DNA from: Pyrobaculum islandicum DSM 4184
GTDB taxonomy: Archaea > Thermoproteota > Thermoprotei > Thermoproteales > Thermoproteaceae
Length of the DNA stretch: 64,000 nucleotides
Reading direction: 5' to 3'
Assembly: GCF_000015205.1 (NCBI RefSeq)
Contig: NC_008701.1
Location: forward strand, 496,001-560,000
Shown: piece by piece, positions 6,645 through 36,340 of the stretch
How the letters are laid out: each line of letters opens with the position of its first letter
Numbering within the stretch: the first letter of the stretch is position 1
Made by a program: the position numbers and the translations under genes
The notes under the pieces: generated by a model
Told to the model about the DNA's origin: nothing
Database searches by the model: none
The model's input: only the letters and a program-made list of their open reading frames with translations

Positions 6645-7733
6645 ATGGATTTGATAATAAAGGTGAGAAGAGGGTTTGAGAAAGTTGTAGCCTCGATAAT
6701 AAAGGAGCTTCTGGGTTCTGCTGTCGAGGTAACTCCCGCGCCCCAAGGTTATCTCGGCATAGTTTTTGTAAATGGAGTTGGTGCCGGTAAGTGGGAAATT
6801 GCAAAAATGTTAGTGGAAAAGGTGCCAGAAGCTGACAAAGTGCTTGTGGTGGAGGGCGTGACAAAAGCCGAACTTCCCGAAATAGAGAGAGTTGCTGTGG
6901 AAGTTGCTAAGAGGTATATAAAGAGCGGCGACACCTTTGCAATTCGAACTACCAGAAGGGGGGTACACAGCTTTACTTCTATAGACGTAAATGTGAGAGT
7001 TGGCGCCGCCGTGAAAGAAGCAACAGACGCCGAGGTCGATCTAGAAGAACCATCTAAGCCGTTATATATTGAGATATTTCAAGATATTGCCGCCATTTGT
7101 ATTCCGGCCACGAGAGAATATAGGAAACTAAGACGTGACAAACCACTGCCGTTAGAGACGTTTAGAAAAGTTGCAATAGGCCAGTTTATCTATGAAGGAG
7201 ATGAGGAGGCTGTGCGAAAAATGGGAGAGAGAATAGGCAGAGCAGCACAAACCTTTGAAGTTGGTGAGCTTACAATCTTGCTTTACAAGCAGACGTCTGG
7301 AAAAACGCTGAGGTTGTTTTTAGAAGCTGTAGAGGAGGGCATAGAGAGTAGATACCAAATACAGGTGAAAAGCTATGGAAGAGCTGTGTGGAAAGTCCCC
7401 ATATATGTTTACGAGTTATATCAATATGTAAGAGATAGAGTGGGAGAGCCCTTGGTAGTTACAGATCCTAAGGGGGACTATATAACACATGTCAAAGATA
7501 AATTAGCAGAGTTATTCAAGGCAGAGAGAGTAAACTTTTTAATAGGGTCTAGAGAGGGGGTGCCGCCTGGCGTATTTCGTTTCGCATCTCTAGTAGTAGA
7601 TTTAGTGCCCGAGGTCACCATTGCCACAGATTTTGTAATACCTTCGCTAGCTGTGGCTATCGCAAGCGCGCTAGAGGAAGCAAACGCCTTGCCTAAATAT
7701 GTTGGGAAAAAGAGACCGAGATCCTCAGAGTGA
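6645..7733 (+). CDS. THUMP-domain protein with SPOUT-like C-terminus
   Basis: 362 aa. Residues ~1-160 look like a ferredoxin-like plus THUMP RNA-binding region, including the segment YIKSGDTFAIRTTRRGVHSF typical of THUMP. The C-terminal ~110 residues carry a SPOUT-like ending, with a GSREGVPPGVFRFA turn and a hydrophobic IPSLAVAIASALEEA helix. Together they suggest an RNA-modifying enzyme or RNA-binding protein acting on tRNA or rRNA; the substrate is unknown. Start ATG 6645. It is immediately upstream of ribosomal protein S11, which fits a ribosome or tRNA role. Confidence 0.75.
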   Translation: MDLIIKVRRGFEKVVASIIKELLGSAVEVTPAPQGYLGIVFVNGVGAGKWEIAKMLVEKVPEADKVLVVEGVTKAELPEIERVAVEVAKRYIKSGDTFAIRTTRRGVHSFTSIDVNVRVGAAVKEATDAEVDLEEPSKPLYIEIFQDIAAICIPATREYRKLRRDKPLPLETFRKVAIGQFIYEGDEEAVRKMGERIGRAAQTFEVGELTILLYKQTSGKTLRLFLEAVEEGIESRYQIQVKSYGRAVWKVPIYVYELYQYVRDRVGEPLVVTDPKGDYITHVKDKLAELFKAERVNFLIGSREGVPPGVFRFASLVVDLVPEVTIATDFVIPSLAVAIASALEEANALPKYVGKKRPRSSE

Positions 7734-27152: not shown

Positions 27153-28159
27153 AGTATCTAACGCCAGGGCCGGTACAATTGCCGAAGTTTGTAATAGATG
27201 CGATGGCAAAACAACCACCGTTTCACCGAGATAGCGAATTTAAAAAGTTGTTCAAATCTGTATTAGATAAACTACACTCATTGTATCCAACTAGAGCCGT
27301 AGTGATGCCTGGCACAGGTACTCTAGCTGTTGATACAATGATATACAATTACGTAAACCCTGGGGACAAAATACTTGCGCTTGTCTATGGTGAGTTTGGA
27401 AAACGGGCTGTAGAGACGGCTAAGATTAGAGGCGCAAATGTGGTTGAAATTGAGCAAGACAAGCCGCCAGCTCCCGACGAAGTTGAAGACATCTTGCGGA
27501 GAGATCGTGAAATTAGGGCTCTGTTGTTGATACACAATGAGACTAGCACTGGTATCGCCTATAAGCAACTAAAGAAGCTTATCGATATTACAAAGTCGTA
27601 TAACGTCCTTCTTCTTGTAGACAGCGTCTCTGGATTTCCTGCAGAGCCTCTTCCACAGGACATCGATGTTGTTGCGACGGCGTCGCACAAAGCGCTTTTA
27701 GCGCCCCCAGGGGCCTCCATCTTATACCTCTCTACAGAACCAAAGGCAGAGACAGGCGTACCTCCTTCTATGAACTTAAGAAAGTTCATAAAAATGTTAG
27801 ATAATCTAGAAACGCCGTATACTCCACCGATTTCTATACTCTTCGCCCTAGACGTTTCCCTGAGTTATATACTGGAACTAGGGCCTAAGTATGTAGATAT
27901 CCACAGGGAGAGAGTAGAATATCTATATTCTGCGCTGAAGTTAAGACCTATTCCGCCAGCCGGTTTACGTAGTTTTACAGTAACGGCTTTCTATTGTGAA
28001 AAGCCAAAAGAAATCATTGCTAAACTAAAGGAGGCGGGGTACGTCATCTCAGGCGGTATGTACAAATATAGAGAAAAATCAATTAGAATAGGTGTAATGG
28101 GAGATATAACCATGGAGGATCTAAGAAGAGTTGTTGATATAATTAATCGTGTGGATTGA
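27149..28159 (+). CDS. Class V aminotransferase (serine-pyruvate/alanine-glyoxylate type)
   Basis: 336 aa, fold type I. It starts MKYLTPGPVQLPKFV as in the SPT/AGT group; the Lys that binds PLP is in TASHKALLAPPG. In archaea lacking classical SerC, such enzymes are proposed to transaminate phosphohydroxypyruvate or other ketoacids in serine and glycine metabolism. The 4-base overlap with serA and 11-base overlap with DUF89 suggest one operon for serine synthesis. The substrate is inferred only. Confidence 0.85.
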   Translation: MKYLTPGPVQLPKFVIDAMAKQPPFHRDSEFKKLFKSVLDKLHSLYPTRAVVMPGTGTLAVDTMIYNYVNPGDKILALVYGEFGKRAVETAKIRGANVVEIEQDKPPAPDEVEDILRRDREIRALLLIHNETSTGIAYKQLKKLIDITKSYNVLLLVDSVSGFPAEPLPQDIDVVATASHKALLAPPGASILYLSTEPKAETGVPPSMNLRKFIKMLDNLETPYTPPISILFALDVSLSYILELGPKYVDIHRERVEYLYSALKLRPIPPAGLRSFTVTAFYCEKPKEIIAKLKEAGYVISGGMYKYREKSIRIGVMGDITMEDLRRVVDIINRVD

Positions 28160-28943
28160 CGAAGTTAATTGTAAGCTCTGTATAATTTCATCAAGGACCA
28201 GCGATTTAGTAAGGCTTAATAGACCTGAAAAACTCCCTGAGATTCTAAGCGAACTCTCCCGTCTATTGCAAAAGTCTAGCAGAAGTGAAGCATTTTCCGA
28301 GAGCTTTAGATCTGTAGCTAAGCTTGTCGGCGTAGAGGATCCCTATAGAGAATATAAGGAGAGACTAGCTACAATAGGCAAAAAAGTTGCGGAGATCGTG
28401 AGACACAAACTTCAACAAACTTCATGGGATTTAAAAACTGCCCTCAGAATAGCGGCTGCGGCGAATATCGTTGATACAAGCGTATTGGGCTATAGACCTA
28501 AGAAACTAGAGGAAGCCATATGGGATTTGCCAGCAATAGAAGAGTACGTAGAGTTACCCTCTGAATTATATTATGTGCTTGATAATGCAGGAGAGGCGCA
28601 AATAGACTTTGTTGTAGCTGAGGCATTAGAGAGAAATGGTATTAAACCCATATTTGTCGTCCGTTCGGAACCTTATGAAATAGACATGACAGAAAGCGAT
28701 CTGGCAGGATACAGGGTGATAGCTACGCCCGGCAATATATCTCCCATCAGATGGATAAGAGATAGATTCATAATAGCGAAGGGTATTGCCAATTTTGAGG
28801 CATATATAGAATGGGGAGAGGTACCAGCGCTTCTATTGTTCAGGGCAAAGTGTGATGTACTCTCCAGGGTATTTTCAGTCCCTAGAAATTCGCCTATTAT
28901 TATCAGCGGCGAGAAGGCTAAGGCTATTAGCCTAGCACAATAA
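28149..28943 (+). CDS. DUF89 metal-dependent phosphatase-like protein
   Basis: 264 aa, GTG start 28149. It has the N-terminal CKLC pair and the DUF89 core motif YYVLDNAGEAQIDFVVAEAL, with later conserved acidic residues. DUF89 proteins are metal-dependent phosphatases acting on small phosphometabolites. It is third behind serA and the aminotransferase with an 11-base overlap, so it is a candidate for the missing phosphoserine phosphatase. Its 3' end overlaps the convergent hypothetical gene by 17 bases. Confidence 0.8.
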   Translation: MWIDEVNCKLCIISSRTSDLVRLNRPEKLPEILSELSRLLQKSSRSEAFSESFRSVAKLVGVEDPYREYKERLATIGKKVAEIVRHKLQQTSWDLKTALRIAAAANIVDTSVLGYRPKKLEEAIWDLPAIEEYVELPSELYYVLDNAGEAQIDFVVAEALERNGIKPIFVVRSEPYEIDMTESDLAGYRVIATPGNISPIRWIRDRFIIAKGIANFEAYIEWGEVPALLLFRAKCDVLSRVFSVPRNSPIIISGEKAKAISLAQ

Positions 28944-29346
28944 GCTTTACAGGCACTCCATTCTTATATTGAATGGTGATTTTTAGAGACTCTAGCCCAC
29001 CCTCTCTTATGATAGATTGCGCTACTTCTCTCACCTTTTTTAGGACGCTTAGCAGATCTACCATGTGTCTATAAGATTCTTCCAAAATCTCGTATCTGGT
29101 CATAGGATTAGGGTCTATATATAGCTGGAGACCTGTGATTTCAAGAGGTGGACTCTTCTCTGAACTTCCAGTGCTAAATTTCCTCAATAACTCTTGAAGT
29201 CTTTTATACCGCTCTAGTGAAGGCTTTAAATTTTCCAACTCTGTGCTTAACGCCTTAACCAACTCTTCTAATTCTCTGACTTTCTGGTCAAGCTCGGATA
29301 AAAACTGATTTGCATCACTATAAGTCTTCACAGTATATACATCCAT
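28927..29346 (-). CDS. Hypothetical coiled-coil protein
   Basis: 139 aa from ATG 29346 (a longer frame opens at 29367). Residues ~15-60 form a coiled coil with regular Leu and Glu (LDQKVRELEELVKALSTELE); the C-terminal half has short strands ending KITIQYKNGVPVKLIVLG. No family recognised. It lies about 37 bases downstream of the cca gene on the same strand and overlaps the DUF89 gene by 17 bases. Confidence 0.5.
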   Translation of the reverse strand: MDVYTVKTYSDANQFLSELDQKVRELEELVKALSTELENLKPSLERYKRLQELLRKFSTGSSEKSPPLEITGLQLYIDPNPMTRYEILEESYRHMVDLLSVLKKVREVAQSIIREGGLESLKITIQYKNGVPVKLIVLG

Positions 29347-29382
29347 ATACCATATGCCTATAGCCATTTATAAGCACAACGC

Positions 29383-30639
29383 TTAAGTAATCCAAGCGTT
29401 TTTCCTTACAAGTGCCCCTTCGTATAAATTTATACGGATAGTGTAATCACCCTTGCCTAGATACGTTTTTAAACAGTCGGAGATATTGGTATAACGTCTT
29501 CTTTTGATTACATAGACCCTAGAGCCCTGTACAAACGGCCCTATTATGTCCTTATCTAAATATTTTTCTACAAATGCATCAACTGCACCGTCATAGACAG
29601 GGGGCCCCCTGTGTAACATATAAGGCGGAAGCTCGATCTGTTCCACTACATATATAAGAGAGACGTAAGACTTTTCGTCGCTTTCAACACCCCATCGGTA
29701 CACCCTGAAGCCGCATTGTTTAAGCCAATTAAAAACTGATCTCCCAATTCTCTTATAACGTCCCCAGACGATGTCGGGAGGCTCATTAGGGTATGGGAAT
29801 ACCACCTCTACAACATTTGTTTTAATGACGGCGCCTTGTCTCTGTTGGAAATATGTTATAGAGGGGTTTTTTAAAAATCGTCGTGATGCCAATATAAAAG
29901 TTGACATAGATGTCAACGAAACAGCTGCGGCTACGTTTCTCTCAGGGTCTACAGGGTCTACAACAACAAGCGGCGCTTTAAACTTCGCCCTAGATTCAGA
30001 GAAAGTAATATATGTACGATAAGGCCTCCATCGTGATGCCGCTTTAAGAACATCTATAAATGAGCCATAATATGCAACAAGAAGCTCAGTTAAATATCCA
30101 GAAAAGCCTTCAACCTTTATTTCAGCCCCATAAACTCCAATTGTTTTCATAAAGAGCTTTAACAATCTGACATCTCGTCTCTGCTCTTCGCTGAGTTTTT
30201 CAACTAGAAACTTATGGTGAAGTGGCGTTCTATCAGCTGCCGTTATAGGTCTTTCGCCAAAGCTAATTTTATAGCATGGAACAACGTCTACTTCGTATCC
30301 ATCGACAAGGAGAGAAAGATATGGGTGTTGCGCATAACGCATGCTCCATGTGACCCCCCTCTCTGAAAAGTATCTTGATAACAGCGTTATAACATCTTTT
30401 ATATTTATGTTTCTGTTTGTGAGTACAATAAAGATATCTATATCGCGTTGCCCGGGTAGCCATGTAGAACGTGCACTAGAGCCGTATACGCCTATCTCCG
30501 CCTCTATCCCATATTTATTTATTGCATCGGCGATTAAGGCCTTAACTTTCTCCGTAACTTTCTTTAACTCTCTCTCTTCCTCTTCGCTAGGCGTAACGAG
30601 TTTATAGGCCTCTCTAAGTACCTCCTCTAAAGTGCTCAC
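29383..30639 (-). CDS. cca: Archaeal CCA-adding enzyme (class I)
   Basis: 418 aa, typical size. It has the nucleotidyltransferase signature GSSARSTWLPGQRDIDIFIV, with the second catalytic Asp in YEVDVVPCY and the archaeal neck and body domains. It adds or repairs the 3' CCA of tRNAs. The tRNAs in this window encode their CCA, so repair may be its main task. It overlaps thpR by 4 bases in a run that continues to rpc34. Confidence 0.95.
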   Translation of the reverse strand: MSTLEEVLREAYKLVTPSEEEERELKKVTEKVKALIADAINKYGIEAEIGVYGSSARSTWLPGQRDIDIFIVLTNRNINIKDVITLLSRYFSERGVTWSMRYAQHPYLSLLVDGYEVDVVPCYKISFGERPITAADRTPLHHKFLVEKLSEEQRRDVRLLKLFMKTIGVYGAEIKVEGFSGYLTELLVAYYGSFIDVLKAASRWRPYRTYITFSESRAKFKAPLVVVDPVDPERNVAAAVSLTSMSTFILASRRFLKNPSITYFQQRQGAVIKTNVVEVVFPYPNEPPDIVWGRYKRIGRSVFNWLKQCGFRVYRWGVESDEKSYVSLIYVVEQIELPPYMLHRGPPVYDGAVDAFVEKYLDKDIIGPFVQGSRVYVIKRRRYTNISDCLKTYLGKGDYTIRINLYEGALVRKNAWIT

Positions 30640-31199
30640 GTGAGATATTGTACAAAGAGGTCACTATAAATAGGCCCTCTCGGCGTTAGCACTGACTTTT
30701 TTAGTTTCACCTTATCTACTTCGATAACGCCGAATTCGGCTTCTCTATAGCGCTCAATAACCTCTCTGAGTTTATCTATGTTTCTTCCAGATTTAATTCT
30801 CCCTATAGTAAGATGAGGAGAAAATTCGCGATCCTCTCTATGTTCTGCATATTTATCTACTAAATTTCTTACTATATTTGCGAGATTGACAAGATTTTCT
30901 AAACCCTTAGAAACGCCAATCCATAATACACGAGGTTTAGCCAAGTCCGGAAATACGCCAAGTCCAGAAAGCGCGATTTTAAACTTACTGAATCTGATGG
31001 TTGTTAAGGATTTAACAATATCATTAACTCGGCTTTGAGGAATTTCTCCCAAAAAACGCAGAGTTAGATGTAAATTTTCTTTTTCTACAAGCTTTATGTC
31101 GAGACCAAGTCTTAGAACCTCTCTTTGTATTTCCTCTACTTTTTTAACAATCTCCGGATTTTCGACGTCGATAGCTACAAAAGCTCTAACCAAGGTCAT
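30636..31199 (-). CDS. thpR: RNA 2',3'-cyclic phosphodiesterase (LigT/ThpR)
   Basis: 187 aa. The two HxTx motifs of the 2H phosphoesterase family are visible: HLTLRFLG and HLTIGRIKSG. The enzyme opens 2',3'-cyclic phosphates of RNA and in archaea can join tRNA halves at low level. It overlaps both cca and the Rpc34-like gene by 4 bases, which fits a role in tRNA processing. Confidence 0.93.
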   Translation of the reverse strand: MTLVRAFVAIDVENPEIVKKVEEIQREVLRLGLDIKLVEKENLHLTLRFLGEIPQSRVNDIVKSLTTIRFSKFKIALSGLGVFPDLAKPRVLWIGVSKGLENLVNLANIVRNLVDKYAEHREDREFSPHLTIGRIKSGRNIDKLREVIERYREAEFGVIEVDKVKLKKSVLTPRGPIYSDLFVQYLT

Positions 31200-31636
31200 G
31201 ACCTCAGGTTATGTAGCCACTTAGTCAATAAGTTGCATGTAAGGGGGGTTATGAAACTAACGCCGCATCGGTCAGAATATGGACAATATACACAGGGTAT
31301 TGATAACAAAGTTCTAAGCTCATTTGGGAGGGCGTCAAAATCTACTATAAAGGCCTCTACTGTCTCCTCATGTATTTTACTAAGCAGTCTATATGCCTTC
31401 TCAGTCAATCTTACTATGTATACACCTCGTTTGTTTCCGCCAACTCTTTCTCTCGCTATGAGTCCTCTTTTTTCAAGTCTAGCGAGTATGGGTAGGCCGG
31501 TCTTACTATCTATTCCAATGTACTTCCAGAGATTCCTCTGTTGATAGCTACCGCCAAGTCTCTCAAGCCCCTGTAATATCTGTATCTCAACCTCAGTAAG
31601 TACATCAGACTCTTCTGCAAACTCTTGTGTCGCCAC
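31196..31636 (-). CDS. Rpc34/RPC39-like transcription factor with winged helix and Fe-S type cysteines
   Basis: 146 aa. A winged helix occupies residues ~13-80. The C-terminal motif IPCVYCPYSDRCG, then P..C.....WL at the very end, has the same four-cysteine layout as the C-terminus of eukaryal RNA polymerase III subunit RPC39, which binds an Fe-S cluster. A crenarchaeal Rpc34 orthologue has been described in the literature. It sits between tfb (36 bases upstream) and thpR (4-base overlap), so it joins a transcription factor to tRNA maturation genes. Confidence 0.8.
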   Translation of the reverse strand: MATQEFAEESDVLTEVEIQILQGLERLGGSYQQRNLWKYIGIDSKTGLPILARLEKRGLIARERVGGNKRGVYIVRLTEKAYRLLSKIHEETVEAFIVDFDALPNELRTLLSIPCVYCPYSDRCGVSFITPLTCNLLTKWLHNLRS

Positions 31637-31672
31637 GTCACTAAAATAGTGGTCTCCATTTAAAAATTTAAA

Positions 31673-32569
31673 CTACACCGTGACCTCAATATATAGGATC
31701 TCCGAGAGTTCTTTCAATAGATCTCGTATAGGTCCTTCCGTGGTATCTGTAGCTTTTGCCAGCTCTTTCTGAGTCACCTCTACGCCGGCTATGTAACAGG
31801 CGTAATAAACAGCGGATGCTGCGAGAACTTGCGGCTTTCTTCCATTTCTAATACGTGGTGATGATAAAATATAGCGTAATATATCCACGGCTATACGTTG
31901 CACCTCTGCAGATTTCTCGTCGCCTATACCCAACGCCGATACAATCCTGGGTATGTATATTTTTGGATCTATACGCGGCGGTTTTATACCAAGTTTATTT
32001 GCAACACGCATAAGCTCCATATATGCTGAGATAAAAGACGAACGGTTAATTCCGAGGTTTTCTGCTAGGCTCCTTAAAGTAATTGCGGCTACCCCATGTT
32101 TCTTGAGCGTGAAATATAGAGCTGCAGCATACCCCTCAAGTCTTGGCGCCCGATATCCAGCATCATATAACTTTTTATACAACATGACAGTATCCTCTAT
32201 CACAGCTTTTGGGATGTTAAGCTTCTGTTTTGCAGCTTCTAAAAACTCTCTTATGTCTACCTCTATGCGTTCAAGTGGTGTAGAGATAGGTCGTGCAAAC
32301 TTCTTTAAGCTAAGCGCCTTAAGTTTATCGGCTATCTTCACATTGCCGAATTCTATATCTCCCATAGAGGAGCCTATGGGGCCTGAATACGCCCTTGATG
32401 ACTCAGGTTTCCTCCACTCAGGGCCTAAATCTGCAACTCCCTCTCTTAAGACAGTTCCGCAATTCTTACATATAACTTGTCCACGTTCGTAATCAACAAC
32501 TACGTCATTAACTGCGCCGCACACCGGGCAGCGGTGCTCCTCTACTTCAAATATCAGCTTTCTAGTCAT
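31673..32569 (-). CDS. tfb: Transcription initiation factor B (TFB)
   Basis: 298 aa. N-terminal zinc ribbon CPVCGAVNDVVVDY...CKNCG (residues ~14-37), B-finger/linker with SRAYSGP, then two cyclin repeats, each about 90 residues (from ~100 and ~200). TFB binds TBP-TATA and BRE and recruits RNA polymerase. Its ATG overlaps gar1 by 4 bases, a known archaeal arrangement. Confidence 0.96.
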   Translation of the reverse strand: MTRKLIFEVEEHRCPVCGAVNDVVVDYERGQVICKNCGTVLREGVADLGPEWRKPESSRAYSGPIGSSMGDIEFGNVKIADKLKALSLKKFARPISTPLERIEVDIREFLEAAKQKLNIPKAVIEDTVMLYKKLYDAGYRAPRLEGYAAALYFTLKKHGVAAITLRSLAENLGINRSSFISAYMELMRVANKLGIKPPRIDPKIYIPRIVSALGIGDEKSAEVQRIAVDILRYILSSPRIRNGRKPQVLAASAVYYACYIAGVEVTQKELAKATDTTEGPIRDLLKELSEILYIEVTV

Positions 32570-32811
32570 TTTCTCCTCTTCTCTAAGTCCTGTAGTTTTA
32601 CATACAGTGGTTGCCCTATTAAAGATTCATCGCGAACATAAGGTTTTACAAGCCCGTACGGATTTTTTATATTACCTATTACATCGTAGAGAATGCCGAC
32701 TTTTTTCATCGTGTAAGTATAGATGTTTATATAAATGGGGGGAACCTCGTTAAGTTTTACCACGAGGTTCCCGAGACGTGAATAATGAAGAGCAGTTCCA
32801 ATGCGTTTCAT
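32566..32811 (-). CDS. H/ACA RNP subunit Gar1
   Basis: 81 aa. The Gar1/Naf1 beta barrel is recognisable from RLGNLVVKL and MKKVGILYDVIGNIKNPYG, then LVKPYV. Gar1 belongs to the H/ACA ribonucleoprotein that makes pseudouridine in rRNA. It heads the gar1-tfb-rpc34-thpR-cca run. Start ATG 32811. Confidence 0.85.
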   Translation of the reverse strand: MKRIGTALHYSRLGNLVVKLNEVPPIYINIYTYTMKKVGILYDVIGNIKNPYGLVKPYVRDESLIGQPLYVKLQDLEKRRK

Positions 32812-32907
32812 TAAAACCCCATCGCGCCCTAATTAATAATAGTTATGCCTTTCAATATCTAGGTAATATGAGGATCTCCGGCTTATTAGGACCTGAGTTC
32901 AAACACC

Positions 32908-33010
32908 GCCTATCCCTAGGCGACGCCTAGGGACTTTCTCTCCGCCCACGCCGTCACCAGTACCTACGATAATTCAGGCATGGGGTCATGGTGTCTGGCA
33001 GCACTTGGCC
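32908..33010. repeat. 103-bp direct repeat, copy 1
   Basis: Base-for-base identical with 36079-36181 by eye. It begins with the palindrome TCCCTAGGCG-A-CGCCTAGGGA (starting at 32912) and, read on the minus strand, encodes the C-terminal tail of a TnpB-like protein. It is probably the conserved right end of an IS200/IS605-type element. Confidence 0.85.
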
Positions 33011-33318
33011 TTTCACCAGCGCCCTTCCCTCGATGTTTATCACGGCCGCCACGTCTCTACCCCCTCACTCGCAGCGGGGCAACGGAGTGCCCTCGAGACA
33101 GAGCCCCTCACAAGACGCCCCCACACCGCAGGCAAATTGAGGAAGTCCCCCTCGGGTTGACCTTGACGATTGGCATCTTCCCCTCTCTAGCCTTTTGTAT
33201 AATTTCTCTTAAACATAATCATAAACCTAACTCTATAGACTCTATCTCTGAGCTTGGGTCATTAATTCTCAATATCATATACTTCGACATCTCCTTTGGC
33301 AAATTCTCGACGGCTATA
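32954..33318 (-). pseudogene. TnpB remnant (C-terminal part)
   Basis: The minus strand encodes, in pieces, REIIQKAREGKMPIVKVNPR, GTSSICLRCGG and, in another frame, GRDVAAVINIEGRAL followed by a tail to a TGA at 32954-32956. These are the RuvC-adjacent helix, zinc-finger and third acidic motif of TnpB. In-frame stops and a frameshift break it, and the N-terminal half is missing. The GC content is higher than in the neighbourhood. It lies between gar1 and rps8e and ends in the 103-bp repeat. Confidence 0.7.
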
Positions 33319-36078: not shown

Positions 36079-36181
36079 GCCTATCCCTAGGCGACGCCTA
36101 GGGACTTTCTCTCCGCCCACGCCGTCACCAGTACCTACGATAATTCAGGCATGGGGTCATGGTGTCTGGCAGCACTTGGCC
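36079..36181. repeat. 103-bp direct repeat, copy 2
   Basis: Identical to 32908-33010, same orientation, 3,171 bases away. It starts with the same 21-base palindrome and reads as a TnpB C-terminal tail on the minus strand. Confidence 0.85.
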
Positions 36182-36340
36182 CGCCGCCAGCGCCCTCCTC
36201 TAACCTCCGCCTAATCCAGATGACGTCTCTCTTCTCGTCTAGCTTGAGCCGTGGCTGAGGCTTCAAGCGCCATCGCAAACTTCAATTCTTCATCGCCTAC
36301 CCAAGATGCGACGTAGATTCTTGACGAATTCAAAGCATCA
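36079..36340 (-). pseudogene. Internally deleted TnpB remnant
   Basis: Minus-strand codons next to the 103-bp repeat read LKLDEKRDVIWIRRRLEEGA, which aligns with LRVKDERDV and NIAWIRKRLEEGA of the tnpB at 60.9-62.0 kb. In the latter this lies in the middle of the protein, so here the middle part is joined directly to the C-terminal tail, with the catalytic part removed. Upstream the frame shifts repeatedly. It has the shape of a deletion derivative (MITE-like) of the copy-1 element. Confidence 0.55.

Follow-up and report, generated by a model that had tools for sequence, protein, structure and literature searches.

Gene content of the locus

The window, a stretch of 64,000 nucleotides of the Pyrobaculum islandicum DSM 4184 genome, lies within a single contig of 1,826,402 bases. 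On its minus strand five open genes follow one another closely: gar1, tfb, a gene for a 146-residue protein, thpR and cca (Table 1). The spacings given in an earlier note made from the sequence alone are exact, with overlaps of 4 bp between gar1 and tfb, between the third gene and thpR and between thpR and cca, and a gap of 36 bp between tfb and the third gene. Its naming of the neighbours as a TFB, a 2',3'-cyclic phosphodiesterase and a CCA enzyme agrees with the family matches. While these five gene calls stand, the range that it assigned to them begins at 28927 and also takes in a coiled-coil protein gene downstream of cca, which it did not mention.

The assignment of gar1 draws on matches to eight NCBIfam Gar1 models, the best of which is listed in the table, and on a Pfam Gar1 match of 6e-4, all of them below the respective cut-offs. 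No RNA genes were found by Rfam between positions 28000 and 35500.

Table 1. Features of the gar1-cca region (positions in the window).
Feature	Position	Strand	Basis
gar1 (H/ACA RNP component, 81 aa)	32566..32811	-	NCBIfam Gar1 5.5e-14; orthologs at the same position in the genus
tfb (gar1-linked TFB paralog, TFB2-type, 298 aa)	31673..32569	-	Pfam Zn_Ribbon_TF 5e-15, TFIIB 1.4e-14
tfb-tfeβ gap, predicted to hold the tfeβ-thpR-cca promoter (TATA-like stretch TTTAAATTTTTAAAT)	31637..31672	-	
tfeβ ("Rpc34-like", 146 aa)	31196..31636	-	Winged helix and FeS/RPC39-type domain
thpR (RNA 2',3'-cyclic phosphodiesterase, 187 aa)	30636..31199	-	TIGR02258 equivalog, 171 bits (cut-off 65.7)
cca (archaeal CCA-adding enzyme, 418 aa)	29383..30639	-	TIGR03671 equivalog, 476 bits (cut-off 281)
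Coiled-coil protein gene (139 aa with corrected start), preceded by its own TATA-like box	28927..29346	-	Starts of orthologs
Retained gar1 promoter region, TATA-like element ~25 bases upstream of ATG	32812..32905	-	Upstream-region alignment

The 146-residue protein is TFEβ

The 146-residue protein is archaeal TFEβ, the β subunit of the general initiation factor TFEα/β. It is composed of a winged helix (residues ~13-80) and an FeS/RPC39-type domain (~110-142). The C-terminal four-cysteine motif reported for it earlier is present as C115xxC118-x5-C124-x9-C134; it is invariant in 27 orthologs and fits the C-terminal family motif CxxC-x(3-5)-C-x(4-10)-C. Searches of Pfam, NCBIfam and the PDB with the single protein gave mainly MarR-type matches, so profiles of orthologs were needed. 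A profile built from the 27 orthologs finds human RPC6 (RPC39), with the match covering the four-cysteine domain (E-value 2.5e-4), and 8 of the 27 match PF05158 (best 5.7e-9). A protein from another genome of the order (39% identity) exceeds the curated cut-off of PF05158 with both its winged helix and its C-terminal region. The proposed kinship with RPC34/RPC39 is thus borne out through the orthologs; the window sequence alone had no significant PF05158 match in a Pfam search.

In the AlphaFold model (pLDDT 80.8, pTM 0.55) the winged helix is followed by a small C-terminal part. The MarR-like character of the former is supported by the Pfam MarR match, the predicted helices and wing, and matches to MarR structures. 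RPC39 is absent from the 50 best fold-search matches of the model, where MarR-type regulators appear instead; hence the fold search does not decide family membership.

The genome carries exactly one copy of TFEβ, and all near-complete genomes of the order have an ortholog. A candidate for its partner TFEα scores above the PF02002 cut-off (G000:C1:969955-970215). Searching with the TFEβ profile also retrieved an ortholog from a Sulfolobales genome of 2,225,959 bp, where it immediately follows gar1 and a TFB, in agreement with the neighbouring numbers of TFB2 (saci_1341) and TFEβ (saci_1342) in S. acidocaldarius (PMC6335949). With the TFEβ of Sulfolobus (Sso0944 / Saci_1342; the "Rpc34" of Blombach 2009) the window protein shares the winged helix, the C-terminal CxxC...C...C FeS-type domain, a similar length, and the adjacency to gar1 and a second TFB. 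The two differ in that thpR-cca follows tfeβ in many Thermoproteales and two genomes from a different family of the same class; we found no further difference. Eukaryotic RPC39/RPC34 has in common with the archaeal protein the FeS domain, as matched by the profile in human RPC6, and winged-helix architecture, but is an RNAP III subunit with three winged-helix domains (PMC4495717), where the archaeal protein has one.

Conservation of gene order

Ten of the 11 genomes of the genus have the complete order gar1-tfb-tfeβ-thpR-cca uninterrupted, which is far from chance; a look at other Thermoproteales confirms that the neighbourhood is conserved. In the one exception (G036), gar1-tfb is found ~20 kb away, and a tRNA-Leu gene (positions 6945-7029 of locus L038) stands where it would be, upstream of tfeβ. 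Of five genomes of the next genus, one has the full run contiguous, and all have an intact tfeβ-thpR-cca. In the rest of the order gar1-tfb and tfeβ-thpR-cca occur as separate, partial or rejoined modules. In another genome (G041, locus L043, 1903-3050) gar1-tfb is inverted with respect to tfeβ, so that gar1 and tfeβ are divergent.

The gar1-tfb-tfeβ part is found in much of the phylum. Of 36 loci sampled outside the order, 18 have gar1-tfb immediately upstream of tfeβ; this fraction is illustrative, since the loci were drawn from the stronger profile hits and may include a few winged-helix proteins of other kinds. The continuation into thpR-cca was seen outside the order in two genomes only, both of the same class.

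Transcription units

Of 27 Thermoproteales loci, 24 have a TATA-like 8-mer at about -27 relative to tfeβ, against 4.2 expected from shuffled sequences; here, as in the following counts, the loci are related and do not represent independent events. Similar boxes precede gar1 (26/32), eS8 (20/22) and the coiled-coil gene (13/17). Among internal genes, they precede tfb in 1 of 29 and srp19 in 2 of 22 loci. The count is 7/25 for thpR and 11/20 for cca, where none of the boxes is perfect and their position is near -33.

The run is probably not one operon, because tfeβ has a TATA-like box of its own and the order breaks repeatedly, in several genera, between tfb and tfeβ. The borders predicted from consensus sequences, which make a single operon unlikely, would delimit at least two adjoining units, gar1-tfb and tfeβ-thpR-cca, followed by the separately promoted coiled-coil gene. 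Within each unit the 4-bp overlaps might allow translational coupling. The adjacency from gar1 to cca on which the earlier note built holds; a single transcription unit is improbable. Most likely, the clustering with RNA-processing genes reflects a shared, growth-linked expression of information-processing genes.

A second TFB without B-reader

The genome encodes two full TFBs, besides one partial match. The gar1-linked one is 32% identical to the other (TFB1), with which it aligns through both cyclin repeats; this region is kept, as are all four zinc-ribbon cysteines (14, 17, 34 and 37). What it lacks is the B-reader, which normally extends into the polymerase. Its linker counts 47 residues compared to 66 in TFB1 (~19 fewer), and the distance from the ribbon to the first cyclin repeat is 46-49 residues in the gar1-linked TFBs of Thermoproteaceae versus 61-68 in TFB1. 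The reader span itself is 17 residues in the window protein versus 31 in TFB1, and 16-17 in all 17 gar1-linked copies of Thermoproteaceae versus 29-33 in TFB1. In other lineages a segment of reader length is mostly kept. We considered whether loss of the B-reader follows adjacency to tfeβ and rejected it: genomes in which the two genes are separated have lost the B-reader too.

With the B-reader missing, the gar1-linked protein is, as judged from its sequence, a fast-evolving TFB paralog and not a canonical TFB. Within the genus its orthologs are 62-85% identical to the window copy, versus 83-96% for TFB1 of the same genomes. A tree of 60 TFB sequences places all the gar1-linked TFBs together on one side of a well-supported branch (SH-aLRT 99%); the tree is unrooted and its long branches leave the inner order unsure.

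Sulfolobus TFB2 (Saci_1341 / Sso0946) is likewise a paralog placed between gar1 and tfeβ, with a zinc ribbon and a cyclin region, and stands on the same side of this branch of the unrooted tree as the window TFB. It differs in the motif at issue: the B-reader is retained in Sulfolobales copies but gone from those of Thermoproteaceae. Sulfolobus TFB2 has been reported to be cell-cycle regulated; on its mechanism we found little work in the literature. Sulfolobus TFB3 is also a paralog without B-finger/B-reader, but its core domain is shortened and it is induced by UV (PMC2246294), whereas the window TFB has the whole cyclin-repeat region.

Having lost the B-reader, the gar1-linked TFB of Thermoproteaceae probably cannot act alone as a normal TFB, and may be an auxiliary or condition-specific factor. 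In the literature, covered mostly without subscription papers, we found no description of B-reader loss in crenarchaeal TFB paralogs. We regard it as a modest lead. A TFB that lacks the B-reader by nature but is otherwise complete in its core would offer a useful means of telling recruitment apart from DNA opening. A second TFB has been kept beside gar1 in much of the phylum, and has lost its B-reader in one family.

Function of TFEβ and alternative readings

We consider it very likely that the locus combines a general factor, TFEβ, with at least two adjoining transcription units and a second TFB kept beside gar1. The function of TFEβ in Pyrobaculum is inferred from Sulfolobus; a literature search found no experiment on the TFEβ of a Pyrobaculum. 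In S. solfataricus TFEβ has a [4Fe-4S] domain through which it dimerises with TFEα. The Sulfolobus protein is essential and declines in stationary phase; it raises transcription two- to fourfold from mRNA, tRNA and rRNA promoters, with the 16S/23S rRNA promoter among the weaker responders (Blombach 2015, PMC4495717). By analogy, TFEβ and TFEα would bind RNAP in the initiation complex and aid the melting of promoter DNA at genes of all kinds.

The homology, the neighbourhood and a proposed part in making non-coding RNA were all in print in 2009: Blombach and colleagues described the RPC34 relationship together with a MarR misannotation, noted that the gene sits with a TFB paralog and with genes for tRNA/rRNA modification, and suggested a function in non-coding RNA transcription (PMC2770514). 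The earlier note, which held that archaeal Rpc34 helps transcribe non-coding RNA and linked it to tRNA maturation, arrived at the same hypothesis, superseded in 2015 by the same group. Gene order had led the field to this idea before, and later experiments did not support it. In its full form, an RNAP III-like Rpc34 would steer the one RNAP of archaea to non-coding genes, those for tRNA included, while being co-expressed with tRNA-maturation enzymes. We judge this highly improbable despite the sequence relation to RPC39, the presence of Gar1, ThpR and the CCA enzyme as neighbours, and its proposal in print. In Sulfolobus the ortholog is no stable part of RNAP and acts on mRNA and non-coding promoters alike, rRNA being among the weaker responders (PMC4495717); in ChIP-exo of S. 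solfataricus its occupancy correlates with that of RNAP at 298 transcription units (PMC8448881). The adjacency to thpR-cca was seen only within one class. By these analogies TFEβ would be neither a tRNA-specific factor nor an RNAP III-like subunit. Still further from the evidence is a MarR-family repressor with a metal-binding tail, regulating its own neighbourhood, to which we assign almost no likelihood. MarR gives the sole Pfam match of the window protein above a curated cut-off (31.6 bits, cut-off 24.6; E-value 1.5e-7), and MarR-family proteins are its best structural matches; but its invariant four-cysteine domain matches RPC39 by profile, this genome has a single copy of it, with orthologs throughout the order, and the MarR label is explained as a known misannotation (PMC2770514).

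Another reading leaves the general role of TFEβ in place and adds to it: TFEβ and the B-reader-less TFB would form a dedicated initiation pair for condition- or growth-specific promoters, with TFEα/β supplying the open-complex function that this TFB has lost. The two genes are adjacent in 10 of the 11 genomes of the genus and in 18 of the 36 loci sampled elsewhere in the phylum, and the B-reader is absent from 17 of 17 Thermoproteaceae copies. TFE is reported to be able to complement mutations in the TFB linker (Werner and Weinzierl 2005, as cited in PMC3223566), which makes a TFE-dependent role for the gar1-linked TFB conceivable. On nutrient depletion of S. acidocaldarius TFB2 and TFEβ transcripts both rise, but so do those of TFB1 in the same starvation experiment (PMC6335949). 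Moreover, tfb and tfeβ have separate predicted promoters, and several Thermoproteaceae have the two genes apart while their TFB still has no B-reader. We thus see such a pair as unlikely. A related proposition, that TFEα/β is indispensable for any activity of the gar1-linked TFB in Thermoproteaceae, likewise has a small chance of being right; if true, these archaea would have a second, TFE-dependent mode of initiation.

Flanking features

The start of the coiled-coil gene downstream of cca is better placed at 29346, because orthologs in 16 other loci begin at the corresponding methionine or close to it. The protein is conserved in Thermoproteales, including the motifs TGL and GxPxK, and is predicted to fold as a strand, a helix of 46 residues, a helix of 35 residues and two strands; a fold search against the PDB gave no match with E < 0.001. 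In two genomes of another genus (L115, L116) its gene lies near gar1-tfb instead.

On the other side of the locus, the 3' part of an IS200/IS605-type tnpB survives in decayed form at 32906-33317, between eS8 and gar1 and on the strand of the latter; eS8 and gar1 are only ~110-150 bp apart in relatives. A fragment of 118 bp located 3 kb away (36079-36196) is 97% identical to part of this remnant. About 30 related fragments are found elsewhere in the genome, at least one of them inside an intact-looking tnpB-like ORF, and many other copies are pieces of ~50 bp derived from the same end of the remnant.
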